This document shows positions 4,349 to 22,457 of a stretch of DNA of 64,000 bases, piece after piece. The DNA is from Alkalispirillum mobile (GTDB taxonomy: Bacteria > Pseudomonadota > Gammaproteobacteria > Nitrococcales > Halorhodospiraceae): assembly GCF_003664325.1 (NCBI RefSeq), contig NZ_RCDA01000006.1, positions 1 through 64,000 on the forward strand. Reading direction: 5' to 3'. A program made the position numbers and the translations under genes. The stretch's first letter is position 1. Each line of letters opens with the position of its first letter. Below the pieces are notes generated by a model. It saw only the letters and a list, made by a program, of their open reading frames with translations, searched no databases and was not told the DNA's origin.

Positions 4349-5758
4349 TCAGAAGGGCAGTTCCAGCCCCTCCTGCACGCTGTTCAGCAGGGCCCGGAAC
4401 GCCGCCTTGATCCGCTCCAGTGCCGCCTCGTCGTCGGCCTCGAACCGCAGCACCAGGCTCGGCGTGGTGTTGGAGCTGCGGATCAGGCCCCAGCCGTCCG
4501 GGAATTCCACCCGCAGCCCGTCAATGGTATGCAACGTGGCGTCGGTGAAACGCTCGCGACCGGCGGTCAGCAGGCGCTCCATCAGCGGGGTGGGTTCACC
4601 CTCCTGCAGGTTTACCCGCAGCTCTGGCGTACTCACCGCATCGGGAATGGCGGCGAAGACCTCCGCACTGCTGCCTCCGCGTGCGGCCAGGATCTCCAGC
4701 AGGCGGGCACCGGTGTAGAGCGCGTCGTCAAAGCCATACCAGCGCTCCTCGAAGAAGATATGCCCGCTCATCTCCCCCGCCAGCGGCGCACCGGTCTCCT
4801 TTAGCTTGGACTTGATGAGCGAGTGCCCCGTCTTCCACATGCAGGGTTCCCCGCCGGCCTCGCGGATCACGTTAGCCAGGTCCGCCGAGCACTTCACGTC
4901 GAAGATCACCGGTTCTCCCGGGCGGCGCGAGAGCACGTCCTGGGCGTAGAGCATCAGCTGCCGGTCCGGCCAGATCACCCCTCCCTCGCTGTCCACCACG
5001 CCGAGCCGATCGCCGTCACCGTCAAAGGCCAGGCCCACGTCGGCCCCGCTGGCCTGCACGCGTTCGATCAACTCCGCCAGGTTGTCGGGGTCCGCCGGGT
5101 CCGGGTGGTGGTTGGGGAAGCGGCCGTCCACCTCGCAGTAGAGCGCCTCCACCTGGCAGCCCAGCCCCTCGAACAACTGCGGTGCCACCGCACCTGCCAC
5201 GCCATTGCCGGCATCCAGCACCACCCGCAGCGGCCGCGCCAGCTTCACGTCGCCGGTGATGCGGGCCAGGTAGTCGGGGACGATGTCGTGGGCCTGGCGA
5301 CCACCGGGCCTGGCCGCCGCCACGTAGTCCCCCTCGTGGACCCGGCGACGCAGGTCCTGGATGTCATCGCCGGAGAGCGTCCGGCCACCGGCCATGATCT
5401 TCATGCCGTTGTATTCCGGCGGGTTATGGCTGCCGGTAACCATCACGCCGGCGCCGGTGTCCAGGTGATGGGTGGCGAAGTACATCAGGGGGGTAGGCAC
5501 GCAGCCCAGGTCGATCACGTCGCGGCCGGCCTGCTGCAGCCCCTCCGTCAATCCGGCGACCAGCTCCGGACTGGACAGCCGGCCGTCGCGGGCCACCACC
5601 ACCTGCTGCTGGCCATGGTCCGCCGCCTCGCTGCCGATAGCCCGCCCCAGTAGGCGCGCCACGTCCGCATCGAAGCCCTCGGTGACGATGCCGCGGATGT
5701 CATAGGTGCGGAAGATGCTGTCGGGCAGGCCTGGCGCCTGATCCTGCTTCTCGGTCAT
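4349..5758 (-). CDS. algC: Phosphomannomutase / phosphoglucomutase (AlgC family)
   Basis: Predicted 469 aa, like Pseudomonas AlgC (463). It interconverts hexose 1- and 6-phosphates (mannose, glucose) for exopolysaccharide, LPS and nucleotide-sugar synthesis. Four-domain layout visible: N-terminal IFRTYDIRG, phosphoserine loop VMVTGSHNPPEYNG, metal loop FDGDGDRLGVV, substrate loop GEMSGH, and C-terminal phosphate-binding RSSNTTPSLVLRFEA. ATG 5758 gives MTEKQDQAPGLPDSIF, matching the family start; the open frame extends 28 codons further without homology. It is last in the coaBC-dut-algC order, as in Pseudomonas, 106 bp after dut. Confidence 0.95.
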   Translation of the reverse strand: MTEKQDQAPGLPDSIFRTYDIRGIVTEGFDADVARLLGRAIGSEAADHGQQQVVVARDGRLSSPELVAGLTEGLQQAGRDVIDLGCVPTPLMYFATHHLDTGAGVMVTGSHNPPEYNGMKIMAGGRTLSGDDIQDLRRRVHEGDYVAAARPGGRQAHDIVPDYLARITGDVKLARPLRVVLDAGNGVAGAVAPQLFEGLGCQVEALYCEVDGRFPNHHPDPADPDNLAELIERVQASGADVGLAFDGDGDRLGVVDSEGGVIWPDRQLMLYAQDVLSRRPGEPVIFDVKCSADLANVIREAGGEPCMWKTGHSLIKSKLKETGAPLAGEMSGHIFFEERWYGFDDALYTGARLLEILAARGGSSAEVFAAIPDAVSTPELRVNLQEGEPTPLMERLLTAGRERFTDATLHTIDGLRVEFPDGWGLIRSSNTTPSLVLRFEADDEAALERIKAAFRALLNSVQEGLELPF

Positions 5759-17592: not shown

Positions 17593-18207
17593 ATGAACCC
17601 TATCTACTTCCAGGCCCGTTTTCTAACCAGCGCCCCGGACCTGCGCCGCATGCCGCAGGACCTGGGGCGCGAGGTGGCCTTTGCCGGCCGCTCCAATGTC
17701 GGCAAGTCGAGCGCCATCAACACCCTGACCAACCAGAAATCCCTGGCCCGCACCAGCAAGACCCCCGGACGCACCCAGCTCATCAATGTCTTCCCGGTCA
17801 CCGAGAACGCCGCACTGGTGGACCTGCCCGGATACGGCTATGCCAAGGTCCCAGCCGCGGTGCGCCGACGTTGGGACCAGGTGCTGCCGGAGTACCTGGC
17901 CGGGCGCGACGCCCTCCGTGGCGTGGTCCTGGTGATGGACCTGCGCCATCCGCTCACCGAATTCGATCGCCAGATGCTGGACTGGTGCACCCACATTGGC
18001 GTGCCGGTGCATGTGCTGCTGACGAAGGCCGACAAGTTTAAGCAGGGGGCGGCGCGCAACCGGGGTCAGAACGTGGGCCGCCAGCTGCAGGCGGAGTGGC
18101 CCGGGGTGACCTGGCAGATCTTCTCTGCCAGCAAGCGGATGGGCGTGGACGAGGCCCACGCCCGGCTGGACGAGTGGCTGGGGCTGGGGCCGGTCGAGGG
18201 CGACTGA
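17593..18207 (+). CDS. engB: Ribosome biogenesis GTPase EngB (YihA/YsxC)
   Basis: 204 aa essential small GTPase for assembly of the 50S subunit. G1 GRSNVGKSS (residues 32-40), G2 [13 protein letters not shown]3 [11 protein letters not shown]4 LTKADK and G5 FSASKRMG are all intact. The neighbourhood polA...engB with dsbA nearby is conserved with E. coli (dsbA-yihF-yihG-polA-spf-engB) and Pseudomonas. Convergent with the beta-barrel gene 19 bp away; a 7-bp hairpin, GGGCGAC/GTCGCCC (18198-18214), straddles its stop. Confidence 0.97.
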
Positions 18208-18226: not shown

Positions 18227-18883
18227 CTAGAACCGGTAGTTCAGCGAGATGGAGATGACCGGGTAGTACTTAACGCTGTCCAGATCATCCTCCAGGCTGC
18301 GTTCCTCCTCGCGTAGGTCATCACGGAATTGGTCATCCACGTTCGCGTCGCCCGTGGTGCCATCCACGCTGACGCTGGGTGAGCCAGTGAACAGCACACC
18401 GATGTCCGAGGTCAGCGTCAGCCGCCCGCCAGCCACCGCATTGCCCCAACCGATACCCAGGTAGGGGGCGAAGCTGCGCCAGTCCACCTCGGCGTCCAGG
18501 CGCGCATCGTCGTAGGTGTTGTCCCCGACATCCAGTTCACCGCGGGCCGACCCGCTGAACTCGTTGCCGTTGTAAAACCCACCCGCACTCAGGCGAAAGC
18601 GCCCCCCGAAGGGGTACCAGTCGGCGAGCAGCCCGGCACTGCGCAGTTTCAGGGTGCCGTCGTACTCGATGTCGTCCTCTTCCAGGTCGGTGCTGTAATC
18701 GAACCCGGTGACCGTGGCCCGCAGGTTAACCCGGTCGGTCATGCCCAGCGTGCCCTCCACGCCGAGACCGGTGGTCCCTGCCTTCACACCCAGTGCAAAC
18801 GGGCCGGCGGCCTGCGCCGTCCCGGTACCCAGCATCAGCGCCAATGCCAGCGCGCTCCCCCCGACCCAATACCTCTGCTTCAT
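18227..18883 (-). CDS. Predicted outer-membrane beta-barrel protein
   Basis: Predicted 218 aa. Signal peptide SALALALMLGTGTAQA, then alternating polar/hydrophobic strands rich in Gly and Asp (GVKAGTTGLGVEGTLG, VNLRATVTGFDYS, FRLSAGGFYNGNEFSG, FAPYLGIGWGNAV, RLTLTSDIGVLFTG) and the C-terminal ISLNYRF, whose final Phe is the usual barrel-assembly signal. The strand count suggests an 8-10 stranded barrel of OmpW/OmpA-like size, but no named family is claimed. ATG 18883 has AAAAGGAC upstream; an open frame upstream lacks homology. It lies downstream of the candidate small RNA on the same strand. Confidence 0.75.
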   Translation of the reverse strand: MKQRYWVGGSALALALMLGTGTAQAAGPFALGVKAGTTGLGVEGTLGMTDRVNLRATVTGFDYSTDLEEDDIEYDGTLKLRSAGLLADWYPFGGRFRLSAGGFYNGNEFSGSARGELDVGDNTYDDARLDAEVDWRSFAPYLGIGWGNAVAGGRLTLTSDIGVLFTGSPSVSVDGTTGDANVDDQFRDDLREEERSLEDDLDSVKYYPVISISLNYRF

Positions 18884-18977
18884 GCTTGTTGTCCTTTTGC
18901 TCATCCTGCGAAGCCAGGATAATACCCACATCACCCATAAGAGATCTAGCCCGACGGAAGGGGGTGCACGGATGCCG

Positions 18978-19104
18978 GAAAGAAAAGGACCCCGGTCCCT
19001 GGGGGGAGGGAACCGGGGCCAAGCTGTAACCCGGCCTTGGGGCGAGCCGGGTGCAGAAGCCCGCTAGAAGAGGAGGGAAGCGGGCGGCGCCAGCGTCGGC
19101 GCTC
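18978..19104 (-). ncRNA. Candidate small RNA at the spf/ErsA locus (four stem-loops)
   Basis: In minus-strand order: SL1 GCGCC/GGCGC (19098-19102 with 19087-19091); SL2 GCCCGCT/AGCGGGC (19079-19085 with 19059-19065) with a 13-nt pyrimidine loop (19066-19078) that contains CCUCCU; SL3 ACCCGGC/GCCGGGT (19046-19052 with 19029-19035); SL4 a terminator, 19007-19018 with 18990-19000, followed by TCCTTTTCTTTCC. Length is about 125 nt from a predicted start near 19104. It has no coding frame of note. The position between polA and engB is that of Spot 42 (E. coli) and ErsA (Pseudomonas). The sequence is not claimed as homologous to either. It could instead be an attenuated leader of the barrel gene 95 bp downstream. 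Confidence 0.62.
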
Positions 19105-19110
19105 ATTGGG

Positions 19111-19138
19111 TAAGACTAGCGTCGCTGGAAAAAGTTTC
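19111..19138 (-). promoter_or_regulatory. SigmaE/AlgU-like promoter of the candidate small RNA
   Basis: On the minus strand GAAACTT (19138-19132) is followed after 16 nt by TCTTA (19115-19111). The sigmaE consensus is GAACTT-N16-TCTGA, so -35 matches 5 of 6 and -10 matches 4 of 5 with the expected spacing. A start near 19104 would place the first stem-loop at the RNA 5' end. No good sigma70 promoter was seen here. Confidence 0.5.
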
Positions 19139-19739: not shown

Positions 19740-22457
19740 TCAATGGGCGCCCTCCCAGTCATCGGCCACGCCCACGTCCACATCCAGGGGCACGGCCAGC
19801 TCACCGGCCGACTGCATGCGCTCGCGCACCCCGGCCTCGACCGCCTCCAGGTCCCGCTCGGGCACCTCCAGGACCAGTTCATCGTGCACCTGCATCACCA
19901 TGCGGGTGTCGGGGTAGGCCTCCGCCAGCCAGGCATCCACCGCCACCATCGCCCGCTTGATCAGGTCCGCGGCCGTACCCTGCATGGGCGCGTTGATGGC
20001 GGTGCGCTCGGCGTACTCCCGGCGCTGGCGGTTGCGGCTGTTGATATCCGGCAGGTAGAGCCGGCGACCAAAGAGGGTCTCCACGTAACCCCGGTCGTGG
20101 GCCTCGGCGCGGGTACGGTCCATGTATGCCTTCACCCCGGGGTAGCGCTGAAAGTAGCGGTCCACGTACGCCTGGGCCTCGCCCCGGTCGATGCCCAGTT
20201 GCCGGGCCAGACCGAAGGCGGACATGCCGTAGATCAGCCCGAAATTGATGGCCTTGGCGGCACGCCGCTGCTCGCCCGCCACCCGGTCAGCGGCCAGGCC
20301 GAAGACCTCGGCCGCGGTCGCGCTGTGGATGTCGGCCCCCTCGGCGAAGGCCTGGCACAGCCCCTCGTCGCCGGAAAGGTGGGCCATGATGCGCAATTCC
20401 ACCTGGGAGTAGTCCGCCGCCATCAGGCGGCAGCCGGGCTCGGCCACGAAGGCCTTGCGGATGCGCCGGCCCGCCGGCGTGCGCACCGGGATGTTCTGCA
20501 GGTTGGGGTCGGAGCTGGAGAGCCGGCCGGTGGCGGCCACCGCCTGGTGGTAGCTGGTGTGCACCCGCCCGGTCTGCGGGTGGATCAGCCGGGGCAGCTT
20601 GTCGGTGTAGGTGGACTTGAGCTTGGCCAGGCTGCGGTAGTCCAGGATCAGGCGCGGCAGCTCGTAGCCCCGGGCGGCCAGCTCCTCCAGCACCGACTCG
20701 GCGGTGGAGGGGGCGCCCTTGGGCGTCTTCTGCAGCACCGGCAGCTCCATGCGGTCGAACAGGATCTCCTGGATCTGCTTGGGGCTGGAGAGGTTGAACG
20801 CGCCCTCGGCCGCCTCGTGGGCCTGCTGCTCCACGCTCGCCATGCCCTCGGCCAGTTCCGCGCTCTGCTCGTCCAGCAGGCGCCGGTCCACCTTCACGCC
20901 ATGCCGCTCCATACGCGAGAGCACCGGCAGCAGCGGCATCTCGATCTGGTGGAAGACCTCCGGCAGGCGCCCCTCCCCCTGCAGCCGCGGGTAGATCGCC
21001 TGGTGCAGGCGCAGAGTGATGTCGGCATCCTCACCGGCGTAGTGGGTGGCGGTGTCCACCGGGACCTGGGAGAAGGGGATCTGCTTGGCCCCCTTGCCGC
21101 AGACATCCTCGTACTTGGTGGTGCCCCGCCCCAAGTACTTCAGCGCGAGGGAGTCCATGTCGTGGCGGCTGGCGGTTGAATCCAGCACGTAGGACTCCAG
21201 CATGGTGTCGTAGGCCACCCCGCGCAGCCGGATGTCGTACCGCGCCAGCACGCTCATGTCGTACTTGAGGTTCTGCCCTACCTTCGGGCGGTCCGGGTCC
21301 TCCAGCAGCGGCTTCAGGGCCGCGAGCACCGTGTCGCGGTCCAGCTGCTCGGGTGCATCGGGGCCATCGTGGGCCACCGGGATGTAGGCCGCCTCACCGG
21401 CCTCCACCGCCAGCGCGATGCCGACGATTTCCGCGTCCATGTAGTTGAGGCTGCTGGTCTCCAGGTCAAAGGCGAACAGCTCTGCCGCCTCCAGCCGCTG
21501 CCGCCACGCGGCGAACGCCTCCGGGTCGCTGACGGTGTGGTACTCGCCTTCGGCGGGCACCTCGTCGTCGTCCTCCGGGCCCTCACCCCCCTCCTCACCG
21601 CCGTTACCCAATTCCCGCAGCAGGCGGCGGAACTCGAAGCGCTGGTAGTACTCGCGCAACGCTTCAGTATCCGGCGTCCCGGGGAGCAGCGCTTCCGGGC
21701 GCTGCTCCAGCTCGAGGTCGCAGCGGATGGTGGCCAGGTCCTGGCTCAGGGCCAACGCCTCCAGGTGATCGCGCAGGCTCTCGCCCACCTTGCCCTTGAT
21801 CTCGTCGGCACGCGCCTTGATGGCCTCCAGCGATCCGAACTGGTTGAGCCACTTGGCGGCGGTCTTGGGCCCGACCTTGGGCACACCGGGAATGTTGTCG
21901 GAGGTGTCGCCCACCAGGGCCAGGTAATCGATGATCCGCTCCGGTGGCACGCCGAATTTCTCCAACACGCCATCCACGTCCAGGCGGCTGTCGTTCATGG
22001 TGTTGAGCAGCGTGACCCGCTCGTCCACCAGCTGCGCCATGTCCTTGTCACCGGTGGAGATCACCACCCGCTGCCCGGCGTCGGCCGCCTGCCGGGCCAG
22101 GGTGCCGATCACGTCGTCCGCCTCCACCCCGGGCACCTCCAGCAGCGGCAGGCCCATGGCGCGGATGATGTCCTTCAGCGGCTGAATCTGTGCCCGCAGT
22201 TCATCGGGCATGGGCGGCCGGTGGGCCTTGTACTGGTCAAACAGCTCATCCCGGAAGGTCTTGCCCGGCGCATCGAAGACCACCGCCATGTGCTCCGGCT
22301 GGTACTCGTCCACCAGCTTGCGGACCATGTTGAGCACGCCGTAGATGGCCCCGGTGGGTTCGCCATCCTTGTTGGTGAGTGCCGGCATGGCGTGGAAGGC
22401 CCGGTACAGGTAGCTGGATCCATCCACCAGTATCAGGGGCTTGCGGCTGTCGGGCAT
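19740..22457 (-). CDS. polA: DNA polymerase I
   Basis: 905 aa (E. coli 928). Three parts: 5'-3' exonuclease ([47 protein letters not shown]), 3'-5' proofreading domain with the carboxylates in place ([33 protein letters not shown]), and the polymerase domain ([41 protein letters not shown]). It fills gaps after excision repair and Okazaki primer removal. ATG 22457 gives [15 protein letters not shown]. Divergent from the LOG gene. Confidence 0.98.

Follow-up and report, generated by a model that had tools for sequence, protein, structure and literature searches.

A conserved structured RNA gene beside polA, with a sigmaE-type promoter motif, and its probable kinship with sX13 and ErsA

Introduction

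The small RNA ErsA lies between polA and engB, is sigma22-dependent and, with Hfq, represses algC at its ribosome site, as set out in the available parts of two reports (PMC8575079, PMC6321483). For another RNA, sX13, the part of the original report at hand gives exclusivity to the Xanthomonadaceae, repression that requires both C-rich loops in the RNA and G-rich motifs near start codons, and dispensability of Hfq, and its authors asked about polA-linked sRNAs in other bacteria (PMC3771888). Do the two have anything to do with each other? Among openly licensed PubMed Central papers, none joining sX13 and ErsA was found.

Here a locus is described that bears on that question. It quite likely encodes a free-standing, trans-acting envelope-stress sRNA of a family that spans the Gammaproteobacteria and usually resides beside polA or engB, with ErsA and sX13 as divergent branches and with C/U-rich loops that would block G-rich ribosome sites.

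The RNA gene and its fold

The window, by which is meant the whole stretch of 64,000 nucleotides that was analysed, has between engB (17593-18207, plus strand) and polA (19740-22457, minus strand) a small RNA gene of about 125 nt at 18979-19104 on the minus strand. Its predicted 5′ end is near 19104 and its predicted 3′ end, taken from a T run, near 18979; the covariance models introduced below delimit it as 18982-19104 (R1) and 18981-19104 (R2). It has the same strand as polA and is downstream of it, with dsbB between, and the engB-polA interval also holds, between engB and the RNA gene, an ORF (18227-18934, minus strand, true start uncertain) which the initial annotation called a barrel gene. 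That annotation had further proposed a free-standing sRNA gene at the position of Spot 42 and ErsA, with a sigmaE-like promoter and loops of anti-Shine-Dalgarno character, and the sequence supports this.

Folding of 18970-19110 (minus strand) reproduced the four stem-loops noticed earlier, at -64.9 kcal/mol with a z of -3.41, one of 200 shuffles being equally good. Hairpin 1 (19087-19102), which begins about 2 nt past the predicted 5′ end, has the form GCGCC-AGUGCCC-GGCGC in many relatives. The stem of hairpin 2 (19059-19085) covaries, and its loop falls exactly where it had been annotated, at 19066-19078; it reads UCCCUCCUCUUCU and includes CCUCCU, of anti-Shine-Dalgarno character. Hairpin 3 (19029-19052), with weak outer pairs to 19024 and 19056, carries the loop CGCCCCAA at 19037-19044, and hairpin 4 (18988-19020), the terminator stem, has a CCCCCC loop at 19001-19006 and is followed by a T-rich run at 18979-18987. 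The U tail after this last stem-loop, CUUUUCUUU, is interrupted. Upstream on the same strand are a -35-like element of sigmaE type, GAAACTT (19132-19138), and a -10-like element, TCTTA (19111-19115), with 16 bases between them, just as first read, and they would put the RNA start near 19104.

On sequence evidence the observation of a structured RNA gene at 18979-19104 is confirmed as real. It is more than chance because there are homologues in the order, because the stems covary and because a promoter motif that is absent from the model recurs upstream.

Homologues and covariation

Among 59 genomes searched with blastn, 13 have similar DNA, that of the window being one of them, and of the 13 loci outside the window's genome 10 are beside engB; this link between the window and its relatives is independent of the training of either model. 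R1 is a covariance model from 19 sequences, those of the window and of 18 members of family f5, and contains no promoter, ErsA or sX13; it was confined to these since hairpin 2 came out misplaced when families were aligned together with MAFFT, and other sequences were aligned through it. R2 is an iterated model from alignment A5, in which 87 matches from across the class are fitted to the model. The window scores 69.8 bits with R1 and 75.8 bits with R2, being in both training sets.

The covariance search beyond the window that the initial annotation had proposed gave R1 matches in 47 of the 54 genomes of the order sample and in 80 of the 274 of the class sample, which was drawn evenly from Gammaproteobacteria. 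R2 matched 138 of the 274, or about half, its training including hits from some of these same genomes and neighbours being checked for R1 loci only. Two R1-negative genomes of the order (G005, G006) carry the RNA gene as judged by blastn and reading, and four others (G009, G023, G033, G049) have no convincing engB in their assemblies. Convincing engB genes are present in 49 of the 54, and a scanner for C-loop hairpins, together with direct reading, located the RNA gene in 46 of these 49, within the flank fetched for engB. By the same means it was not seen in three fetched engB flanks (L016, L019, L038), and in the genomes of the first two it adjoins polA instead (L318, L314). At the third (L038, genome G045) the aligned ends of polA and engB are just 18 bases apart (1482-1501), and neither scanner nor R1 found the RNA gene there, an apparent loss. 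Extra copies with no close polA or engB occur in two genomes of the order, G020 (L314:1606-1719, L315) and G025 (L316, L317). Across a phylum sample R2 matched 24 of 299 genomes, four of them outside the class. One of those four hits (L246:1501-1618, minus strand) coincides with a near-threshold match to ar14 (44.2 of 58.8 bits), and an ar35 match lies elsewhere on the same stretch.

Compensatory changes in the stems are seen in two alignments. In A4, the 19 sequences of R1 not fitted to structure, standard pairs fill 93.9% of pair cells, and double changes are seen at 13 of the 34 pairs, against 7.4 in shuffled alignments. In A5, where fitting to the structure has to be borne in mind, 93.3% of cells are paired and all 34 pairs show double changes; the covariation score is 0.557, compared with 0.168 when shuffled and at most 0.096 when slid. 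The loops behave otherwise. C makes up 52% of loop 2 and U 33% (85% C+U, 86 sequences), and C makes up 56% of loop 3 and 75% of loop 4. Of 87 sequences, 64 carry CCC or CCUCC in every one of loops 2-4, 22 in two of these loops and a single sequence in one. Part of this richness is built in, since the model that collected the hits had C-rich loops in its training. A C-rich loop has been lost in L027 and L033, and hairpin 2 in L008. As the stems vary while the loops stay C, the loops point to being the working parts of the RNA.

Judged from its sequence, then, the RNA gene is a conserved gene. The window's copy has each of the traits by which a polA/engB C-loop sRNA family can be delimited, namely a match to the four-hairpin model, C-rich loops 2-4, a sigmaE-like promoter and linkage to polA and engB.

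The promoter motif

The upstream motif was scored on GAACTT plus the T, C and A of TCNNA, for a maximum of 9, with a spacer of 15-18 and within 100 bases upstream; the window's own site scores 8. Of the 87 matches 86 were scored, the 5′-clipped L017 being left out, and 70 of them have a motif of at least 8 of 9, where first-order shuffles lead to an expectation of 1.9; for the same 86 hits the reverse strands gave 0 and the region 140-250 bases upstream gave 5. In the class, 82 loci from 80 genomes were taken, with one G223 region entered twice (L071, L313) and tandem loci represented by their best-scoring copy. Sufficient upstream sequence was there for 81, and 63 of these reach at least 8 of 9 against 2.7 expected, counts that are not independent events since related genomes share descent. 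The 18 below 8 of 9 include one of two sX13 loci.

For the sigma factor itself, an RpoE-type match was found in 54 of 54 order genomes, in 52 of them above cut-off. Upstream of rpoE itself the window's genome has GAACTA-N16-TCTAC, and GAACTH-N15-17-TC, a pattern picked after that site had been seen, precedes rpoE at 24 of the 26 order loci that could be scored (another 4, of 30 in all, being clipped), and at 0 on the reverse strand. The exact form GAACTT-N15-17-TCNNA has 12 sites in the window's genome against 14 for a backward control, and by itself the motif is therefore no predictor of promoters; the 12 do not include the site of the window, which has AAACTT. The same genome has a GAACTT-N15-TCTGA some 550 bases upstream of hfq (G000:C1:1181284-1181309, minus strand; L153); sites of this kind do not outnumber the backward control. 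With its recurrence upstream of homologues and a like motif upstream of rpoE, the motif makes sigmaE control of the RNA gene a prediction well founded on sequence.

One family or convergence

What is the window RNA akin to? At its gene in the window no Rfam family reaches cut-off. There are 13 weak matches round the site, including 6C (28.1 bits), sX13 (22, for a gathering threshold of 50), ar14 (21.2, for 58.8) and Pseudomon-1, i.e., ErsA (20.2, for 50), and as 6C and ar14 score about as well as ErsA and sX13, C-rich hairpins alone attract models. The converse searches are more telling. R1 recovers, with R1 scores of 43.6 and 47.3 bits, both sX13 loci tried, the two that Rfam's own sX13 model scores above its cut-off; a quicker whole-genome R1 search listed one of the two. 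Of 80 named loci fetched 19 were scanned with Rfam, and 9 proved to be ErsA and 7 Spot 42. R1 found 8 of the 9 Rfam-confirmed Pseudomonas ErsA loci, at E values of 5e-4 to 0.014 in 565 kb, and of the 7 confirmed Spot 42 loci none was recovered by R1 or R2; 19 of the 21 R1 matches listed in that search are at most 1.7 kb downstream of engB. The initial annotation had held the RNA to be probably unrelated in sequence to ErsA, a view that recovery of 8 of 9 ErsA loci by a model containing no ErsA speaks against.

Could ErsA, sX13 and the window RNA nonetheless have arisen independently, at the same locus and under the same promoter logic, with C-rich hairpins and a terminator that merely cross-react? 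The weak matches of the window to 6C and ar14 would fit such convergence, as would the four R2 hits outside the class, none of which has polA or engB as a neighbour and one of which is ar14-like, and as would the lack of the promoter motif from sX13. The Rfam sX13 model, too, has 12 matches in the class, 2 of them above cut-off, and 4 of the 12 are neither at R1 loci nor at true sX13. Against this, 6 more of the 12, beyond the 2 true sX13, are at R1 loci, and so are 7 of the 10 class matches of the Rfam ErsA model, of which one is above cut-off. The R1 class hits are moreover concentrated: at 69 of 82 loci the fetched flank contains polA and/or engB, the 13 with neither including several on short contigs, and the strand is consistent, the RNA gene having the same strand as polA in 49 of 52 cases and the opposite one to engB in 56 of 59. 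Promoter motif, position and strand are also common to ErsA. Independent origins are accordingly judged unlikely, and window RNA, ErsA and sX13 probably form one class-wide family, of which the models suggest that ErsA and sX13 are branches.

On how that family came about, opinion can tilt only a little beyond even towards the following history. A sigmaE-controlled sRNA targeting ribosome sites would have been established between polA and engB early in Gammaproteobacteria. ErsA would be derived from it with a new single-stranded seed and sX13 without the stress promoter, Spot 42 would have the position instead in Vibrio and the enterobacterial lineages, and amplification in several lineages would have led to tandem arrays with as many as four copies.

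With one family behind sX13 and ErsA, and with a conserved stress-type promoter, it becomes feasible to ask which of the targets go back to the ancestor, and how targeting by loops gives way in an sRNA to targeting by a single strand. Many genomes gain a predicted sigmaE regulon member as well, among them that of the window, whose RNA Rfam does not cover above cut-off.

A proposed mode of action

As we picture it, an envelope-stress sigma factor of RpoE/AlgU type would transcribe the free-standing gene, whose own terminator would end the transcript, so that envelope stress, acting through RpoE, would induce the RNA. The covarying stems would be a scaffold presenting short C/U-rich loops, and these would block the translation of a set of mRNAs by pairing with their G-rich ribosome-binding regions, as for sX13, perhaps with a need for Hfq.

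Which mRNAs might be involved? Loop complementarity at 50 crude gene starts in the window, the calling of which is unreliable, showed no excess over gene interiors, the longest run at starts being 6 (5 genes), where two sets of interiors gave 6 (7 genes) and 7 (4 genes), and target prediction with the loop, an earlier suggestion, thus gave a null result within the window and supported no particular target. The algC homologue had been put forward as one. With its start taken at 5758 it has the ribosome site AGAGGA, for which a duplex with loop 2 comes to -11.2 kcal/mol. When genes were crudely ranked by duplex, each with several candidate starts, the algC start region came at an unremarkable 8 of 51, so it was dropped as a favoured target. 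GGGG is present in 16 of 30 roughly placed hfq start regions; for comparison, random 54-base stretches have it in a fraction of 0.17, and the regions upstream of rpoE in 9 of 26 cases. This makes hfq, which is repressed by sX13, a weak lead and nothing firmer.

The C-rich loops might instead bind a protein, for instance Hfq or a ribosomal protein, or titrate another RNA. The null pairing result in the window would sit well with that, as would the resemblance of loop 2 to the 16S anti-Shine-Dalgarno and the finding of Hfq in 52 of 54 order genomes. sX13, however, works by pairing of loops to G-rich motifs and does so without Hfq, as far as the consulted portion of its description goes (PMC3771888), and we regard binding or titration as rather improbable beside mRNA pairing.

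Orientation, tandem copies and the downstream ORF

A further alternative, raised in the initial annotation, was a terminated leader, i.e., an attenuator, of the ORF called a barrel gene. That ORF is on the same strand just past the terminator, with first ATG candidates about 75-95 bases beyond 18979, and its 221 scanned amino acids had no Pfam match. By tblastn it was not found in the other order loci examined. The RNA gene, moreover, flips relative to polA and engB with its own promoter motif and terminator retained: it is reversed against the usual sense in Halorhodospira (8 of 8, relative to engB), in genus g3 (2 of 2) and in family f2 (12 of 12), e.g., at L029, L002 and L039, while the usual sense is kept in the window and in family f5. 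The window's organism is presumably of another genus than Halorhodospira within the same family. Tandem copies, among those read, also carry their own promoter-like motifs. A leader is therefore rejected as very improbable.

The tandem copies are of some interest in themselves. Genome G223 has four in about 750 bases beside polA (L313:2649-3401, minus strand), each with a promoter-like motif, the scores being 7, 8, 8 and 8 of 9, and two copies are present at each of several other loci (L024, L084, L094, L264, L282, L301 and L303), G013 being among the genomes with two.

A short protein-coding gene in place of the RNA gene (ORF 18726-19106, minus strand) is scarcely credible, for although an open frame begins at hairpin 1 in the window and at least one frame is open through the RNA in 74 of 87 family members, as GC-rich DNA would lead one to expect, the other 13 have none, the alignments have one- and two-base gaps and the stems covary.

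Comparison with known systems

The more distant resemblances are to alphaproteobacterial ar14 (RF02344) and ar7, which share C-rich hairpin loops with the window RNA and belong to a different class; ar7 is said, in the available part of the sX13 report, to adjoin polA (PMC3771888). In sX13 (Rfam RF02232, Xanthomonadaceae), which like the window RNA is downstream of polA, three stems with apical C-rich loops correspond to window hairpins 2-4. It differs in having, as the seen part of its description has it, an unstructured 5′ region where the window has hairpin 1 (PMC3771888), and no sigmaE-like motif was found upstream at either of its two loci, the best score being 6 of 9. ErsA (Pseudomon-1, Rfam RF01719) shares with the window RNA the polA-engB interval, the strand, C-rich loops in its last two hairpins and a promoter motif, in ErsA of the GAACTT-N17-TCAGA or TCATA type. 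It is unlike it in that a U-rich single-stranded target-binding region is found in the place of hairpin 2, and for several targets it is Hfq-dependent, both on the part of the literature consulted (PMC8575079).

Spot 42 (Rfam RF00021) has the polA-engB interval in common with the window RNA, and its model has no match in the window at gathering nor at E≤10. Its control is by CRP, unlike the sigmaE-like promoter here. RybB and MicA, enterobacterial sigmaE-dependent sRNAs, have the envelope-stress control and the repression at ribosome sites that are proposed for the window RNA, and differ in their single-stranded 5′ seeds and in their loci. Going by the models, the better reading is that the window RNA is related to ErsA and, more clearly, to sX13.
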